A DNA stretch of 33,207 bases from Bacilli bacterium (GTDB lineage: Bacteria; Bacillota_I; Bacilli_A; RF39; UBA660), in contig JAFSEX010000029.1 of assembly GCA_017435465.1 (NCBI GenBank), positions 1 to 33,207 on the forward strand, read 5' to 3'. Positions within the stretch are counted from its first letter, which is position 1. Each line of letters starts with the position of its first letter. Positions 3,907 to 28,528 of the stretch are shown piece after piece. The notes under the pieces were generated by a model, which saw only the letters and a list, made by a program, of their open reading frames with translations, was not told the DNA's origin and ran no database searches. The position numbers and the translations under genes were made by a program.

Positions 3907-4857
3907 CTAATTTGATTTACAACATATTTTTGCAGAGCCAACACCTTGATGTTTGCCGCCATTCCACATTTCCCATGTAGAAATTTCTTTATGAGAGTTA
4001 AAAATAGCTATTTCGCCTGAAAAAGTACCATATAATATCTTATCTATCATTTCTTTTTGACCCATAATTATTTCACCTTCACTATAATATCTAAAACGAT
4101 TATAAAGAATTACTGGGCCATTTTTATCTAGTGTAATATCACCTTTGAAATTTTTTTCAGAATATATTATTAATTTTGTATTTTGATCAATTGCAATAGA
4201 ATCTAAAGTATGGTTAAGAGCTCTAGAAATACTATATTCTAAATCACTGTATTTTCCACTACCTAAAATATCTGATGTAAAAAAATCATTAACAAATATT
4301 ACTGGACCATGGCTTAAAGCCCCTTCACCATTAACAGGTATTATTCCATCAGAAATATAGCTGCCACTAAAATGAACCCTACATCCATTTACTGGTGCTT
4401 GAGCTACATCAGAACAATTCCATCCTTCTGGATCTTTATCCTCTACTTCAGGTTCTTCAGTATCAGGAGTTGGTTCATCTTCAACTATCTCTTTTTTACA
4501 AACTGGGATGTTATCTTTATCACATTCACTACCATTAACATCGGCAACACATTTAAAGCATCTATTGTTAGTATCTCCACCTACTAAACCAATTAAAAAT
4601 GATACTATTGATATTACAAAGAATACTGCTACACCATATATTAATCTCCTTACAAATGTTTTTTGAGTTTTCTTTATTTCATCATCTTTTTGAGCAATTA
4701 TCGCTTTTATAAAATCAATGCTTCCCATTAAAATGATTATCACTGGTATAACAATTTTTATAATATTCATTATATGACCTAAAAAGATAAATAATCTAAT
4801 TAGACAATCACAAAAATTTGTTGGGTTTGTTAATATATTTAATAAATTATAATTCAT
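3907..4857 (-). CDS. Two-helix pilin-like module fused to crystallin-like outer domain
   Basis: A 316-residue membrane protein of the modular family found four times here. Residues 14-120 are the shared cassette: NFCDCLIRLFIFLGHIMNII, a long hydrophobic helix (about 20-50), a charged loop QKDDEIKKTQKTFVRR, a second helix (72-92), then a cysteine cluster (C100, C103, C112, C120). The two helices resemble VirB2/TrbC-type pilins; this is inference. After an acidic linker (122-143), residues 145-316 are homologous to the C-terminus of the protein at 26816-28528. They contain IYSEKNFKG at 231-239, a pattern like beta/gamma-crystallin Greek-key motifs. No cleavable signal is seen; the first helix probably acts as signal-anchor. 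It overlaps the end of era by 11 bases and sits between era and yqzL, where no such gene is usual. Confidence 0.75.
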   Translation of the reverse strand: MNYNLLNILTNPTNFCDCLIRLFIFLGHIMNIIKIVIPVIIILMGSIDFIKAIIAQKDDEIKKTQKTFVRRLIYGVAVFFVISIVSFLIGLVGGDTNNRCFKCVADVNGSECDKDNIPVCKKEIVEDEPTPDTEEPEVEDKDPEGWNCSDVAQAPVNGCRVHFSGSYISDGIIPVNGEGALSHGPVIFVNDFFTSDILGSGKYSDLEYSISRALNHTLDSIAIDQNTKLIIYSEKNFKGDITLDKNGPVILYNRFRYYSEGEIIMGQKEMIDKILYGTFSGEIAIFNSHKEISTWEMWNGGKHQGVGSAKICCKSN

Positions 4858-14127: not shown

Positions 14128-15453
14128 TTATGGTTTATAGATAACTTGATTTTCTAATCCATTTCCTAATTTATACCAATTACTATCAAATCCAGATGGT
14201 GCAGAACTTTTACCAATTACAATTATAGTTGCAGGAACATCCAAATTTTCTGTATAGAATGCCTCACCACTTATTGTTGTAACATTTTCAGGTATTACTA
14301 TAGTAGTCATTTTATGATTATTAAAAGCATTTTGTTCAATAGAAGTAACACTATTTGGTATTATTATGTTAGTTATTGGATTAACATTAATGATGAGACC
14401 AAAGGAAACAATATTATTTGGAATAAATACACTTGTTAATTGATTATATGCAAATGCACTTCCTCCAATTGAAGTAACACTATTTGGTATTGATATACTA
14501 GTTAATTGATTATAAGCAAATGCATTTGAACCAATAGAAGTAACACTATTTGGAATTACTATTTCACTTAAATTGTTACTAGCAAATGCTATACTACCAA
14601 TTGTTGTAATAGTATCTGGTATTATGACATTTGTTAAGTTTTTAGCGAGAAAAACTTCATCTCCAATAGAAGTAACTGTAATTCCATTAACTACTGGTGG
14701 TATTATAATATCTCCACCTGGACCATTATATGCAGTTAAAACTCCTGCTTCTGATACTACAAAATCACTTTCTGGACTAGTATAATATGCTTCTCCTTCA
14801 GCTTGTATTGTTGCTTTAAATGTTTGTCCCATCATTACACTTTGGTCTAAATGAGTTTCTTCTATCCATATATATAAATTATATTCTTTTTCATCATATG
14901 TTGTTACTCCATCTTCTGTTATTGGTGCTTCAAGTACTTGGTATGGTGCTACCATTAAGCTTGTTCCTACTCCATCAAATGATCCATTACTTACATTTTT
15001 TTCGATTTTATTTGTTTTATCTGTTACTTCATATAATGACCACATAAAATCATATCTTTTTAAATCATCTGAAGAAACTGCCACACCTTCTTCGTTTAGT
15101 TTTGTTGTTGTAATATCTTCTAATGAGATATGTACATACATTTTTTCTGTTCCTGTATTTTTGATTGTGAAATTTTTTGTTACTGCTTTTCCTGCAGTTG
15201 TTACTTTCCCTGTTTCATCTTGTGTTGGTAGTGCAACTTCTCTAATTAGTGGTGATAATCCAGATGCATTTGCGATTGGGGATCCATCTGCATAATCTAT
15301 ATCTAGATTTGCTGTTGTAACTGTTTGTTCTTCACTACTATCTTGCGCCATAAAGTACGCAAAACTTATTCCTAGTACTAATGCTAGTACTACTACCAAT
15401 GATGATATCATTAGTATATTTTTTTCTTTTTTGTTTAAATCTTTTTCTTCCAT
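14128..15453 (-). CDS. Surface protein: TasA-like N-terminal domain plus BspA-type leucine-rich repeats
   Basis: A 441-residue exported protein. Residues 13-35 form one hydrophobic segment ending SFAYFMA, followed by TTANLDIDYADG. This is like the SipW-dependent signal peptide and start of TasA/camelysin-type matrix proteins (AYFSD...TLDL). Residues 45-222 form the TasA-like beta domain, with FTIKNTGTEKMYVHISLED and IWIEETHLDQS. Residues 240-405 are BspA-type leucine-rich repeats with a 22-residue period (IGSNAFAYNQLTSISIPNSV). No LPxTG sorting motif is seen. Proteins with such repeats often mediate adhesion; the fusion to a fibre-type domain suggests a polymerised or matrix-bound adhesin (inference). 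The promoter contains eight G in its spacer (15534-15561). Confidence 0.85.
   Translation of the reverse strand: MEEKDLNKKEKNILMISSLVVVLALVLGISFAYFMAQDSSEEQTVTTANLDIDYADGSPIANASGLSPLIREVALPTQDETGKVTTAGKAVTKNFTIKNTGTEKMYVHISLEDITTTKLNEEGVAVSSDDLKRYDFMWSLYEVTDKTNKIEKNVSNGSFDGVGTSLMVAPYQVLEAPITEDGVTTYDEKEYNLYIWIEETHLDQSVMMGQTFKATIQAEGEAYYTSPESDFVVSEAGVLTAYNGPGGDIIIPPVVNGITVTSIGDEVFLAKNLTNVIIPDTITTIGSIAFASNNLSEIVIPNSVTSIGSNAFAYNQLTSISIPNSVTSIGGSAFAYNQLTSVFIPNNIVSFGLIINVNPITNIIIPNSVTSIEQNAFNNHKMTTIVIPENVTTISGEAFYTENLDVPATIIVIGKSSAPSGFDSNWYKLGNGLENQVIYKP
14400..14700 (-). repeat. 66-bp tandem repeats encoding leucine-rich repeats
   Basis: About five units of 66 bases encode the 22-residue LRR unit. 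The best-conserved pair encodes IGSNAFAYNQLTSISIPN and IGGSAFAYNQLTSVFIPN. Units carry GCATTTGC(T/A)TATAATCAATT, similar enough for repeat-number change by recombination. Confidence 0.65.
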
Positions 15454-15533
15454 TATATACTCTCCTATCTACTTCATTGTGAATATTTTTAATAATAAGT
15501 AATTATTACTATCTATCCACAATTTTCAATATT

Positions 15534-15561
15534 AGTATATAATATTCCCCCCCCGAGTCAA
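15534..15561 (-). promoter_or_regulatory. Promoter with poly-G(8) spacer before the TasA-like/LRR gene
   Basis: Minus strand: -35 TTGACT (15556-15561), then C plus eight G (15547-15554) and AATATTA, then -10 TATACT (15534-15539). The spacer is 16 bases, so one added G would give the optimal 17. The run is the only long G/C homopolymer in the window. The -35 also overlaps the T-run of the preceding gene's terminator. Confidence 0.75.
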
Positions 15562-15607
15562 GAAAAAGTTTTCAACAGGTGTCAATTTGACACTTCTATT
15601 GAAAACT
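15562..15607 (-). terminator. Terminator of the TtcA-like gene
   Basis: GTTTTCAA...TTGAAAAC (15568-15575 with 15599-15606) plus an inner GTGTCAA/TTGACAC stem form a long hairpin followed by TTTTTCTT on the minus strand. Confidence 0.85.
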
Positions 15608-15608
15608 A

Positions 15609-16442
15609 TTATTTTTTCTTTTCATCATAATCATCCAAAAAATTATATTTTATTTTACCGTCGTGATATCCAATTATAGTACTAAGATTTATGTTTTCTA
15701 CACTTCTAAATATATTAATATCTACATTTGGATTAATTTTTCTATATTTATTAATTAATTCTTTTATTTCTTTACGTTTTGATTTATTCTCATCTATGTT
15801 AATTTCTTCAGTGAATTTACAAGCACAATTAATAAATACTAACTCATTACTTTTTGTCCAACTAAGTATATCTTTCTCTTTGATATAATACATTGGTCTA
15901 ATAAGTTCCATACCCTCAAAATTGTCACTATGTAATTTTGGCATCATTGTTTTAACTTCTGCACCATATAAAATACTCATTAAAATAGTTTCAATAACAT
16001 CATCAAAATGATGTCCTAGAGCTATTTTATTACATCCTAATTCTTTTGCTTTGTTATATAAAAATCCCCTACGCATTCTTGCGCATAAATAACATGGTGA
16101 AGTCCCTCCAAAATTATCTACTACGTTAAATATATCAGAAGAAAAAACTTTAATTGGAATATTTAAAATTTGAGCGTTTTCTTCAATCTTTTTAGCATTC
16201 TCTTCATTATATCCAGGATTCATAACTAAAAATTCTAAGTCAAAATTAATTTTTCCGTGTTTTTTTAATTCTTGAAAGCACTTTGCCATAAGCATGGAAT
16301 CTTTTCCACCTGATATACATACAGCAATCTTGTCACCATCATTAACAAGTTTATATTCTTTAATTGCTTTAACAAATCTAGCCCATATTTCTTTTCTATA
16401 TTTTTTGATAATACTTCTTTCTATTTCTTCATATTTTTCCAT
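15609..16442 (-). CDS. TtcA-like tRNA 2-thiolation / PP-loop ATPase
   Basis: A 277-residue PP-loop ATPase of the TtcA/TilS-like group; TtcA adds sulfur to cytidine 32 of tRNAs using an iron-sulfur cluster. The nucleotide loop SGGKDS is at 44-49. The TtcA-type cysteine pair PCYLC gives C117 and C120, followed by ARMRRGFLY; GHHFDDVIET at 143-152 is also typical. A third cluster ligand could be C206 or C208 in INCACKF. The family contains several thiolation enzymes, so the exact base is not certain. It is preceded by an unknown 114-residue gene about 18 bases upstream and is likely co-transcribed with it. Confidence 0.85.
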   Translation of the reverse strand: MEKYEEIERSIIKKYRKEIWARFVKAIKEYKLVNDGDKIAVCISGGKDSMLMAKCFQELKKHGKINFDLEFLVMNPGYNEENAKKIEENAQILNIPIKVFSSDIFNVVDNFGGTSPCYLCARMRRGFLYNKAKELGCNKIALGHHFDDVIETILMSILYGAEVKTMMPKLHSDNFEGMELIRPMYYIKEKDILSWTKSNELVFINCACKFTEEINIDENKSKRKEIKELINKYRKINPNVDINIFRSVENINLSTIIGYHDGKIKYNFLDDYDEKKK

Positions 16443-24655: not shown

Positions 24656-24731
24656 ATTTATCACCAAAATAATTATACATCAAATATAAAAAAATTAAAA
24701 TAAAAACACATAGAATTTGTGTTTTTATTTT
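24655..24731 (-). repeat. Duplicated terminator-promoter segment, copy 1
   Basis: About 75 bases that closely match 26742-26820. On the minus strand it reads: terminator hairpin AAAAACACA/TGTGTTTTT, a T-rich run, TGTATAATTATTTT (a TATAAT -10), and GGTGAT before the next gene's start. In both copies it follows a pilin-module gene ending in a CC(R/K) pair of cysteines. Differences are a few bases and one-base indels. Confidence 0.75.
24695..24727 (-). terminator. Terminator of the pilin-module gene at 24725-26098
   Basis: AAAAACACA / TGTGTTTTT stem (24702-24710 with 24718-24726), T-rich on the minus-strand side, overlapping the stop codon. Confidence 0.75.
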
Positions 24732-26098
24732 CTACAACATTTAGGAAGATGTTCTTTATTACATACTTCGCCATTAACATCAGCAACACATTTAAAACAT
24801 CTATTATTAGTATCTCCACCTACTAAACCAATTAAAAATGACACTACTGATATTACAAAGAATACTGCTACTCCATATATTAATCTTTTTATAAATGTTT
24901 TTTTAGTGATTTGAATTTGATCATCATTTTGATAAACTATTGCTTTTATTAAATCTATACTTCCCATTAATATAATTATTATTGGAACAGTTATTTTTAT
25001 AATATTCATAATATGTCCTAAAAATATAAATAATTTTATTAAACAATCACAAAAATTATCACTTTCTGCTACACAGGTTGGTTCTTCTACCTCTGGTTCT
25101 GGTGATTCATCCATACAAGTTTCTGGATATTCAGTGCAGCATTTACCAGGATTAGATTCTGCGTATTGTTTATTATCACATTCATTGGATTCCGAAACAG
25201 GATTTTCTAAATCAAGTTCTACTGGAAAAGACAAATCAGTTACAATAAAATTTGTTTTCAACTGACAAGCATGTACATTATAATGTGTTCCAAGGCCAAA
25301 TCCATAAGAATTAGAAATAGTAGATATATTTACTTCTTTTTTCTTAGAACCATCATTCATTTCCCATTCCATTAAATTCCAATCTTCTAATTCTTCAGCA
25401 TAATATGTTGGAGTAGAATGGGCATATAATTTCACAGTATTTTTATTTACTACTAATTTTATTTTATTAAAAGGACTATCTATTATAGAATAAAATTTAC
25501 CAAGTATTTTAGTATTAGGAATTTTTATTAAATTTTTAATACTATCATTCATAAAATGATTCAAGACATTATAATGGTATTGGTGATGTAAATCACGAGT
25601 TGATAAATTAGTAATTTCTAACAAATATGTTCCATCCTGTGAAAAATATATCGCATGTGTATTTATTATTTGATTATTCATATTATAATTACCAGTTATA
25701 TTTGTATTAAAGAATATACTAAACCCTAAAAAAGTATGCCACAAATTCTGTGTTTCCGCAGTCTTATTAATATTTAAAGAAAAAGTTTTTTCATTTGAAT
25801 TATTACTTGGATAATATAGAAAGTCTGCATGTGGAGAAGTACCATATCCTTTAAAATCAACTGTTTTTCCATCATTAGTAATATTTGTATGTCTATCTAT
25901 TGTATAATTACCAACCATAATTTCTTCATGATACTCAATATATTTGTGTTCTGTATCTGAAATAATTGCTTGTTCTTGAAAATTAGTATGATCATATATC
26001 CACCAAGTAGCTTTTGACAAATCTTCTTCAGCATATACATTATTTCCAATAATTAAACATATACAAAATAATATAAATAAATTCAAATATTTCTTCAT
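24725..26098 (-). CDS. Secreted N-terminal domain joined to pilin-like two-helix module
   Basis: A 457-residue protein. A signal peptide (1-23, LFILFCICLIIGNNVYA) is followed by an unrecognised, probably beta-rich outer domain (24-320) starting EEDLSKATWWIYDHTNFQEQ. A cysteine-rich linker holds ECDNKQYAESNPGKCCTEYP and acidic repeats. The shared cassette begins near 342 (CVAESDNFCDC). Helix 1 is at about 355-388, a charged loop is YQNDDQIQITKK, helix 2 is at 405-427, then the cysteine tail NRCFKCVADVNGEVCNKEHL. The gene ends almost at once after this module, unlike the two longer relatives. Its last 373 bp of cassette are nearly identical to 27369-27741. Topology should place both the N-terminal domain and the cysteine tail outside. 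The function is unknown. Confidence 0.75.
   Translation of the reverse strand: MKKYLNLFILFCICLIIGNNVYAEEDLSKATWWIYDHTNFQEQAIISDTEHKYIEYHEEIMVGNYTIDRHTNITNDGKTVDFKGYGTSPHADFLYYPSNNSNEKTFSLNINKTAETQNLWHTFLGFSIFFNTNITGNYNMNNQIINTHAIYFSQDGTYLLEITNLSTRDLHHQYHYNVLNHFMNDSIKNLIKIPNTKILGKFYSIIDSPFNKIKLVVNKNTVKLYAHSTPTYYAEELEDWNLMEWEMNDGSKKKEVNISTISNSYGFGLGTHYNVHACQLKTNFIVTDLSFPVELDLENPVSESNECDNKQYAESNPGKCCTEYPETCMDESPEPEVEEPTCVAESDNFCDCLIKLFIFLGHIMNIIKITVPIIIILMGSIDLIKAIVYQNDDQIQITKKTFIKRLIYGVAVFFVISVVSFLIGLVGGDTNNRCFKCVADVNGEVCNKEHLPKCCRK
24732..25104 (-). repeat. Near-identical cassette repeat, copy A
   Basis: This 373-bp segment encodes the pilin-like module and aligns base for base, without gaps, with 27369-27741. 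Only scattered substitutions are seen, clustered at the cytoplasmic loop (around 24890-24925). A more distant third copy lies at about 4495-4825. It is a recent duplication or gene conversion. Confidence 0.85.
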
Positions 26099-26742: not shown

Positions 26743-26820
26743 TATTATCACCATAAAATAATTATACAACAAATATAAAAAAAGTAAAATTAAAAACACA
26801 TTAGAATTTGTGTTTTTAAT
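26742..26820 (-). repeat. Duplicated terminator-promoter segment, copy 2
   Basis: Matches 24655-24731 with few differences: hairpin AAAAACACA/TGTGTTTTT, T-run, TTGTATAATTATTTT and GGTGAT before the YgjP-like start. The two segments sit at the 3' end of two pilin-module genes, so the duplication spans gene end, terminator and promoter. Confidence 0.75.
26785..26818 (-). terminator. Terminator of the VWA/pilin-module gene
   Basis: AAAAACACA / TGTGTTTTT stem (26792-26800 with 26809-26817) followed on the minus strand by TTTTACTTTTTTT. Confidence 0.78.
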
Positions 26821-28528
26821 TTTTACAACATATCATAAATGATTTAAATGCATTATATTCTCCATACATGTGTTGCGGTGATCTTTCATAGGGAAAATTT
26901 AATCCATTATAATTATTAGAAAACAGGGAATTATTTACCCAACTATTGAAAATACTTTCATCATTGTTTCCACTATATAATAATAATGGTCCTTCTTTTT
27001 CAAAAAATTGACCTTTGAAATTTTCTTGATCATAAAATATAAGCTTCGTATTTTTATCTATAACAAATGAATCTAATGTAAGTGAAGTGGAATTGGGTGC
27101 CGCTATTGTAGAGGAACTATATTTTCCTTTTCCAAGTATATCGTTTGAATTTGGATAATTAGAATTTTCTAATGTGAAAAATTTTTGATTCATACCTATA
27201 ACAATATCACTAAAATGAACTCTACATCCTTCAATTGGTGCAGTATTAACATCACTACATGACCAACCTTCTAAATTAGGCTCTTTTTTTTCAGGAATTG
27301 ATTCTTCTTCTTTTGGAACTTCATCTTCTTGAGGTTCTTCTTTTGGAACACTTTCTATATTTGAATTCCTACAACATTTAGGAAGATGTTCTTTATTACA
27401 TACTTCGCCATTAACATCAGCGACACATTTAAAACATCTATTATTAGTATCTCCTCCTACTAAACCAATTAAAAATGATACTACTGATATTACAAAGAAT
27501 ACTGCTACTCCATATATTAATCTTTTTACAAATATTTTCTTTGTTTGCTGTATTTGATCATCATTTTGATAAACTATTGCTTTTATTAAATCTATACTTC
27601 CCATTAATATAATTATTATTGGAACAGTTATTTTTATAATATTCATAATATGTCCTAAAAATATAAATAATCTTATTAAACAATCACAAAAATTATCACT
27701 TTCTGCTACACAGGTTGGTTCTTCTATTTCAGGTTCTGGTGGAATTGTTGGCACTTCATCTTCTTCTTTTGGTATTTCAGTAATAGGCTCACTAATATCA
27801 ATAAAATAATATTTTCCTAATGTTTGTTTTGTTTTTTCACCAAAATAATTTATATTTGCATGGTCATTACCGATGTTTACAATATATAATTTTATTCCAT
27901 AATCAAGCAAACTTTCTCCACCAGCAATTGTTTCAAACACATTATGATCCATTGAATCAGTTAGCCATATAATAATGTCATAACTCCATTGAGAAGTAGG
28001 TACCATTTTAGATGATAAATATTTAAATGCACTTTCACTTCCTGTTGGAGGGAATGTACCATTATATACTATCATATTATAATCGTATGTTTTATCTTTG
28101 CTTATGTTTTTTCTCATTATGGCTTGAAATTTAACACTTTCATTTATTCCATCTGTATATAAAAATGGTGCATAATTTGCAATACCAATCATATCCTCTG
28201 AATGCAGTGCATTAACAAATTTTTGAATTGTTTCATCTATATAACTTAATTGTGTATTGTTTTGCATACTTCCACTTACATCAACTGCAAATAATACATT
28301 TGCATAACTTCTAGTTTGTCCATCTGGCATTCTAGTAGCTTCACTTTCTCTCCAAGTTTTAAACCATTCTGGATTATTAATAAGTAATTTTTCACAATTA
28401 TTTGCTTCAGTACAAGTACTTGGTATGGAATAATATTCTTTTGATTCAGTAATAATAGTTTTTGTATTATTAAAATTAATATTTACTATACATAGTAACA
28501 TAAATAATATAAAATTTATCTTTTTCAT
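26816..28528 (-). CDS. VWA domain - pilin-like two-helix module - crystallin-like domain protein
   Basis: A 570-residue protein with four parts. A signal peptide lies at about 1-20. A von Willebrand A domain (about 75-245) has an intact metal site: D83-V-S85-G-S87 in LFAVDVSGSMQ, T162 in FPPTGSESAF and D191 in IIIWLTDSMD. After an acidic/proline linker (250-271), the shared cassette (273-387) has helix 1 (284-318), a charged loop, helix 2 (337-357) and cysteines C365, C368, C377, C385 and C386. After a second acidic linker (389-420), the domain 421-570 is homologous to the end of the 3907-4857 protein, with LIFYDQENFKGQFFEKEGP, a beta/gamma-crystallin-like motif. With the signal removed, both VWA and crystallin-like parts lie outside. 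VWA domains usually bind proteins; the role here is unknown. Confidence 0.8.
   Translation of the reverse strand: MKKINFILFMLLCIVNINFNNTKTIITESKEYYSIPSTCTEANNCEKLLINNPEWFKTWRESEATRMPDGQTRSYANVLFAVDVSGSMQNNTQLSYIDETIQKFVNALHSEDMIGIANYAPFLYTDGINESVKFQAIMRKNISKDKTYDYNMIVYNGTFPPTGSESAFKYLSSKMVPTSQWSYDIIIWLTDSMDHNVFETIAGGESLLDYGIKLYIVNIGNDHANINYFGEKTKQTLGKYYFIDISEPITEIPKEEDEVPTIPPEPEIEEPTCVAESDNFCDCLIRLFIFLGHIMNIIKITVPIIIILMGSIDLIKAIVYQNDDQIQQTKKIFVKRLIYGVAVFFVISVVSFLIGLVGGDTNNRCFKCVADVNGEVCNKEHLPKCCRNSNIESVPKEEPQEDEVPKEEESIPEKKEPNLEGWSCSDVNTAPIEGCRVHFSDIVIGMNQKFFTLENSNYPNSNDILGKGKYSSSTIAAPNSTSLTLDSFVIDKNTKLIFYDQENFKGQFFEKEGPLLLYSGNNDESIFNSWVNNSLFSNNYNGLNFPYERSPQHMYGEYNAFKSFMICCKN
27369..27741 (-). 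repeat. Near-identical cassette repeat, copy B
   Basis: Partner of 24732-25104, same length, offset 2637 bases. It sits inside the VWA gene, where coding continues past the cassette, whereas copy A is at the end of its gene. Confidence 0.85.

Follow-up and report, generated by a model that had tools for sequence, protein, structure and literature searches.

The window, i.e., the whole 33,207-nt stretch of DNA that was analysed, has a G+C content of 24.5%, in line with the about 25% claimed for this region by the preliminary description. On the minus strand, positions 15561 to 15534 read TTGACT-C-GGGGGGGG-AATATTA-TATACT, and the promoter scan listed this site with 10 of 12 consensus matches and a 16-nt spacer. 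The earlier placement of eight G between TTGACT and TATACT at 15534-15561 was borne out by both the sequence and the scan, and the expected 17-nt spacer after gain of one G agrees with the 16 nt observed. Apart from this tract, no run of C or G in the window exceeds 5. The features of the locus are as follows.

14128..15453, minus strand: target gene, a 441-aa N-terminally anchored BspA-type LRR protein (profile matches, hydrophobic N-terminus)
15460..15466, minus strand: ribosome-binding site AGGAGAG (sequence)
15476..15523, minus strand: leader (5'UTR) stem-loop containing TGTGGATA (fold -14.5 kcal/mol, z -3.1)
15514..15521, minus strand: candidate downstream box TGTGGATA, with the DnaA-box-like form TGTGGATAA in relatives
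15534..15539, minus strand: -10 hexamer TATACT (sequence, promoter scan)
15545..15546, minus strand: A2 run next to the G tract (A4, A5, and A7 in the paralogous promoters C27, C42, and C36, respectively)
15547..15554, minus strand: G8 tract in the promoter spacer (sequence; motif shared by the genome's eight G8 tracts)
15556..15561, minus strand: -35 hexamer TTGACT (sequence, promoter scan; TTGACT or TTGATT/TTGAAT at paralogous sites)
15567..15607, minus strand: hairpin with a trailing TTTTT, immediately 5' of the promoter (fold -19.2 kcal/mol, z -6.6)
15568..15577, minus strand: upstream box TGTTGAAAAC, whose position, 16 nt ahead of the -35, is fixed
15609..16442, minus strand: upstream neighbour, a PP-loop (TtcA-like) ATPase that ends just before the hairpin and lies outside the proposed switch

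The hairpin at 15567..15607 is probably the intrinsic terminator of the upstream gene, and as such it would insulate the promoter; the consensus scan listed no terminator. Its left arm is missing in the copies C36, C21, and C42, and its right arm, which is the TGTTGAAAAC box, is retained even there. The window's genus comprised the window's genome (G000) and two others, the sister species G001 and the rabbit-gut bin Lapin-027 bin35 (G002). In 29 of the 32 genus sites, TGTKGAWA stood at the upstream-box position, always equally far from the -35; the downstream box was present in 24 of the 32, mostly 24 nt past the tract. In G002, an extended -10, TGCTATACT, occupies the position equivalent to TATACT. 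The leader stem-loop sequence is conserved in the copies C53, C27, C8, C36, and C21; an Rfam search of the leader gave no match, and a known RNA element was therefore rejected.

The genus promoters (L092-L137 in G002 and 15514-15577 in the window) carry TGTGGAAAAC upstream and TGTGGATAAC downstream, both resembling DnaA boxes, and a link to a regulator or to replication is possible. The bases at the -35 edge are nearly always GANTC (GACTC, GATTC, GAATC) in the sites of all three genomes, a possible methylation target that overlaps the -35. An A/T-rich 18-nt inverted pair (89%) flanks the promoter, with one arm within the coding start, a stretch that differs in the C8 and C42 paralogues. All promoter copies point the same way, and the reading as an invertible promoter is weak. 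Reiterative transcription from a G tract at the transcription start was rejected, as the tract lies upstream of TATACT and no -10 was seen upstream of it.

The target gene had been described as encoding a TasA-like/LRR surface protein. The LRR part was clear, with an LRR_5 (BspA-type) match at E 1.2e-33. The TasA/camelysin-like N-terminus received weak support, as the SipW-dependent signal model scored 17.2 against a cut-off of 19; Peptidase_M73 matched a paralogue at E 0.0019, below its cut-off. A surface or secreted location of the product is indicated by the LRR_5 match together with its hydrophobic N-terminus. The same holds for the wider set: a hydrophobic segment in the first 60 residues was present in 66 of 69 proteins downstream of such promoters vs 20 of 95 other ORFs from the same loci (Fisher p 8e-24). 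Three other proteins of the window (3907-4857, 24725-26098, and 26816-28528, minus strand) share a near-identical membrane module, FCDCLI.LFIFLGHIMNIIKI...GVAVFFVIS.VSFLIGLVGGDTNNRCFKC, and have different outer parts; one showed a weak VWA match and two had no Pfam match.

Statements on the whole 1.46-Mb genome rest on pattern searches. With independent bases, about 0.13 runs of at least eight G/C are expected in a genome of this size. Eight G8 tracts and none longer were found, all of them in one -35/-10 context and mostly before membrane or surface proteins; a chance run was rejected because of this common context. The homopolymer lies between the -35 and -10 of its gene both at the window site and genome-wide. 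Of the genome's two G7 tracts, one is also in the promoter motif. About 13 related sites precede further LRR proteins, a Listeria-Bacteroides-repeat protein, and small proteins with an N-terminal anchor. The tracts of these sites occur as G8A2, G8A4, G8A5, G8A7, G7, G5, and CCG5; the promoters are conserved in other respects, and their spacers measure 13, 14, 15, 16, 18, 19, and 21 nt. Length variation is concentrated at the G/A stretch of the spacer, mainly in the A run (A2, A4, A5, A7), and the G run is very uniform. A close paralogue (C29:64723) lacks a G tract, and its spacer (TTGACT-N17-TAAAAT) has the usual 17 nt. At C8:31098-31162 (L034) the hairpin, the -35, and G5 are present and no -10 is recognisable; this is apparently a decayed or solitary promoter cassette.

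The order-level pattern TTGA-N1-4-G8+-N2-12-TATA was searched in 385 sampled genomes of 117 genera, all of one family, with the reversed pattern as control. It was present in 72 of the 385 genomes and 30 of the 117 genera, and the control was almost empty. Up to 76 pattern matches were counted per genome, a figure inflated by overlapping matches; the motif copies in this uncultured Bacilli family reach about 30-40 per genome, stand before surface-protein genes, and often differ only in the number of G. In a sample of the phylum outside the family (about 330 genomes), two genomes had the motif, at one site each. The flanks of the tract vary by genus (TTGACTG, TTGACATG, TTGACGT, TTGATG), so the common feature is a G run in the spacer and not a longer fixed sequence. 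The G number varies as well: G001 has G6, G8, G9, and G10, G019 has G9, G10, and G11, G401 has runs of about 10-13, and nearly all of the about 14 sites in G002 are G8.

Scans of viral contigs (two pattern scans and protein scans) gave no matches, and a viral or mobile origin was rejected on these empty scans. In the scan of named genomes, several matches in G+C-rich genomes had exactly G6 and look like chance. Candidatus Paceibacterota STE_147, which belongs to an unrelated phylum and has a genome of only about 0.5 Mb, has five promoters (L095, L108, L110, L130, L139), all TTGACTC-Gn with G9-G11, and four of these stand before proteins with a hydrophobic N-terminus; most of the downstream proteins have signal peptides. 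They look like an independent case of the poly-G spacer design.

Tract length was followed most closely in the genus g88, with 111 distinct sites from four genomes and 19-34 copies recovered in each. The -35, -10, and flanks are nearly invariant: at 8 sites the core of 19 non-G bases departed from the genome consensus, and G ranged from 7 to 10. At consensus-core sites, the G number was 8 (12 sites) and 9 (13) in G233; 8 (17) and 9 (2) in G283; 7 (1), 8 (25), 9 (2), and 10 (1) in G147; and 7 (6), 8 (18), 9 (4), and 10 (2) in G186, with G8 modal in three of the four genomes. In G233, G8 and G9 were evenly divided over two gene subtypes (6/6/6/6), i.e., length was independent of subtype. The same genome has four tandem, similar camelysin-like genes with G10, G9, G9, and G8, and a second tandem pair with G9 and G8. 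These arrays use a second architecture in which the tract adjoins the -10; over the 95 bases downstream, the copies show 2 to 9 differences. This length pattern is what slippage would predict and is contrary to a fixed binding site. The modal spacer is 15 in g88 and 18-21 in G019, so the 'better' slip direction would differ between lineages. A compensation between the tract and the non-G spacer length across genera was dropped, as it was not significant (Spearman -0.18, p 0.26).

The reading of the site as a phase-variable surface promoter thus gained in two respects: a spacer homopolymer upstream of a surface protein was confirmed, and tract length varies from species to species and among near-identical copies, with the remainder of the promoter constant. 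This second point is weaker in the window's own genome, where the long tracts are uniformly G8 (8/8) and length varies in the A run and as G5 or G7.

The probable explanation, on sequence grounds, is control of the surface-protein repertoire by slippage in promoter spacers, as in porA and vlp. Sigma-A/sigma-70 promoters have an optimum spacer of 17 plus or minus 1 nt. The window feature would belong to a promoter family with many copies, whose sigma-A spacer is in large part a G homopolymer. Replication slippage would add or drop a base in the G run, here also in the adjoining A run, and would shift the distance between -35 and -10 about its optimum of 16-18 nt. Each surface-protein gene would be turned up or down independently of the others, by an on/off or a dimmer switch, and the outcome in the family would be a combinatorial surface repertoire. 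We infer that the lengths change reversibly within a clone, and differences between paralogues alone are no proof of clonal switching; metagenome assemblies give the majority allele only. By analogy with known systems, the length would set transcription. Switching of the window's own G8 through slippage is plausible, though unproven.

Some points speak against slippage. Spacers of 13 and 21 nt would be very weak as sigma-A promoters, and since the non-G core is under selection, the free G count could be merely tolerated. A slippage-permissive background through mismatch-repair loss, which is common in such genomes and no defining requirement, was not found: MutL was identified in 43 of the 44 genomes checked, the window's genome among them, and mismatch-repair loss was rejected as a cause. 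With MutL present, slips at G8 would be corrected and length change would be slow, and switching rates may be low.

The presence of MutL would also suit a G run that is a fixed element, with a constant function (binding of a regulator or DNA stiffness) that keeps it near eight, and with incidental length differences. The uniform G8 of the long tracts in the window's genome and of nearly all sites in G002, and the modal G8 in three g88 genomes, point the same way. We nevertheless regard this account as unlikely, because the G number varies in G001, G019, G186, G233, and the tandem arrays while the adjoining bases are constant, and because other genera alter the bases on either side of the tract and use 8-13 G, unlike a protein-binding site. 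Static diversification, in which duplication or recombination would have given each gene a spacer of fixed, gene-specific promoter strength with no ongoing slippage, is the least probable account. It could explain the changes from A2 to A7 and from G8 to G5 in the window's genome, which are not single-step slips, but length in G233 is independent of gene subtype and near-identical tandem copies differ by single Gs.

Operator spacing of the NadR type, in which a regulator would bind the TGTKGAWAAC and TGTGGATA boxes and the tract would mainly set their distance or helical phase and not the sigma spacer, is quite improbable as the main mechanism. The constant distance of the upstream box from the -35 (29/32) and the recurrence of the downstream box (24/32) fit it, and phase variation of nadA acts through the spacing between operators (PMC2791445). 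However, the boxes were found only in the window's genus, and the g88 sites listed have the same tract with other flanks; the tract also lies between the -35 and -10, so sigma spacing shifts regardless. As two further boxes flank the tract in the window's genus, a nadA/NadR-like contribution there is possible. The likeness to nadA is the repeat between two candidate regulator boxes; unlike here, the nadA repeat is built of tetranucleotides and lies upstream of the promoter, and no NadR homologue was identified.

For promoter-spacer slippage, the closest known systems are the spacer homopolymers of porA, fetA, and opc in Neisseria meningitidis (PMC2791445, PMC3899988), where one-base changes in the porA tract alter transcription (PMC3899988, PMC2791445). 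As in these genes, the homopolymer lies between the -35 and -10 of a surface-protein gene; tract instability and length-dependent transcription are established in Neisseria. The Neisseria genes are a few separate Gram-negative loci with demonstrated switching, whereas here a standard promoter, a candidate switch, is repeated before paralogue families in uncultured Bacilli. In the vlp family of Mycoplasma hyorhinis, each member has its own promoter-region homopolymer (PMC10502178). It resembles the present case as a surface-protein gene family with promoter homopolymers in a comparatively related low-G+C lineage, but the vlp tract is adenine and not G, and here there are many more loci per genome and different proteins. 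Bordetella fim2, fim3, and fimX share a promoter G/C homopolymer; they are activator-dependent with a fim box, whereas here a -35-like TTGACT lies directly upstream. In fimX, transcript levels differed nearly fourfold between C7 and C8 (PMC1891110); eight bases are thus enough to matter.

The kind of switch is known (porA/vlp type). What is new is its occurrence in this lineage, at so many loci, and with a standardised promoter; in the literature searched, we found no paper joining RF39 with phase variation. Large multi-locus phase-variable sets are known mainly from pathogens, which may be a database bias according to a recent review (PMC11868660). We lean slightly towards the view that this uncultured, reduced-genome gut Bacilli family keeps much of its surface proteome under dozens of homogenised, independently slipping poly-G promoters, i.e., a multi-locus phasome in non-pathogens. 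On the sequence evidence, a single genome of these bacteria may hold dozens of candidate switch promoters. If true, this would matter for our view of how commensals vary their surface in the face of immunity, phages, or competitors. The prediction is directly checkable in existing metagenome reads, and TTGAC-N0-4-G7+-N2-14-TATAAT is offered as an annotation rule.

The window's genome has one run of at least seven G outside the promoter motif, a G7 at the ribosome-binding-site position of C28:21579 (L015, ACAGGGGGGGAATACTAATG), where translation could be affected if the tract slips.
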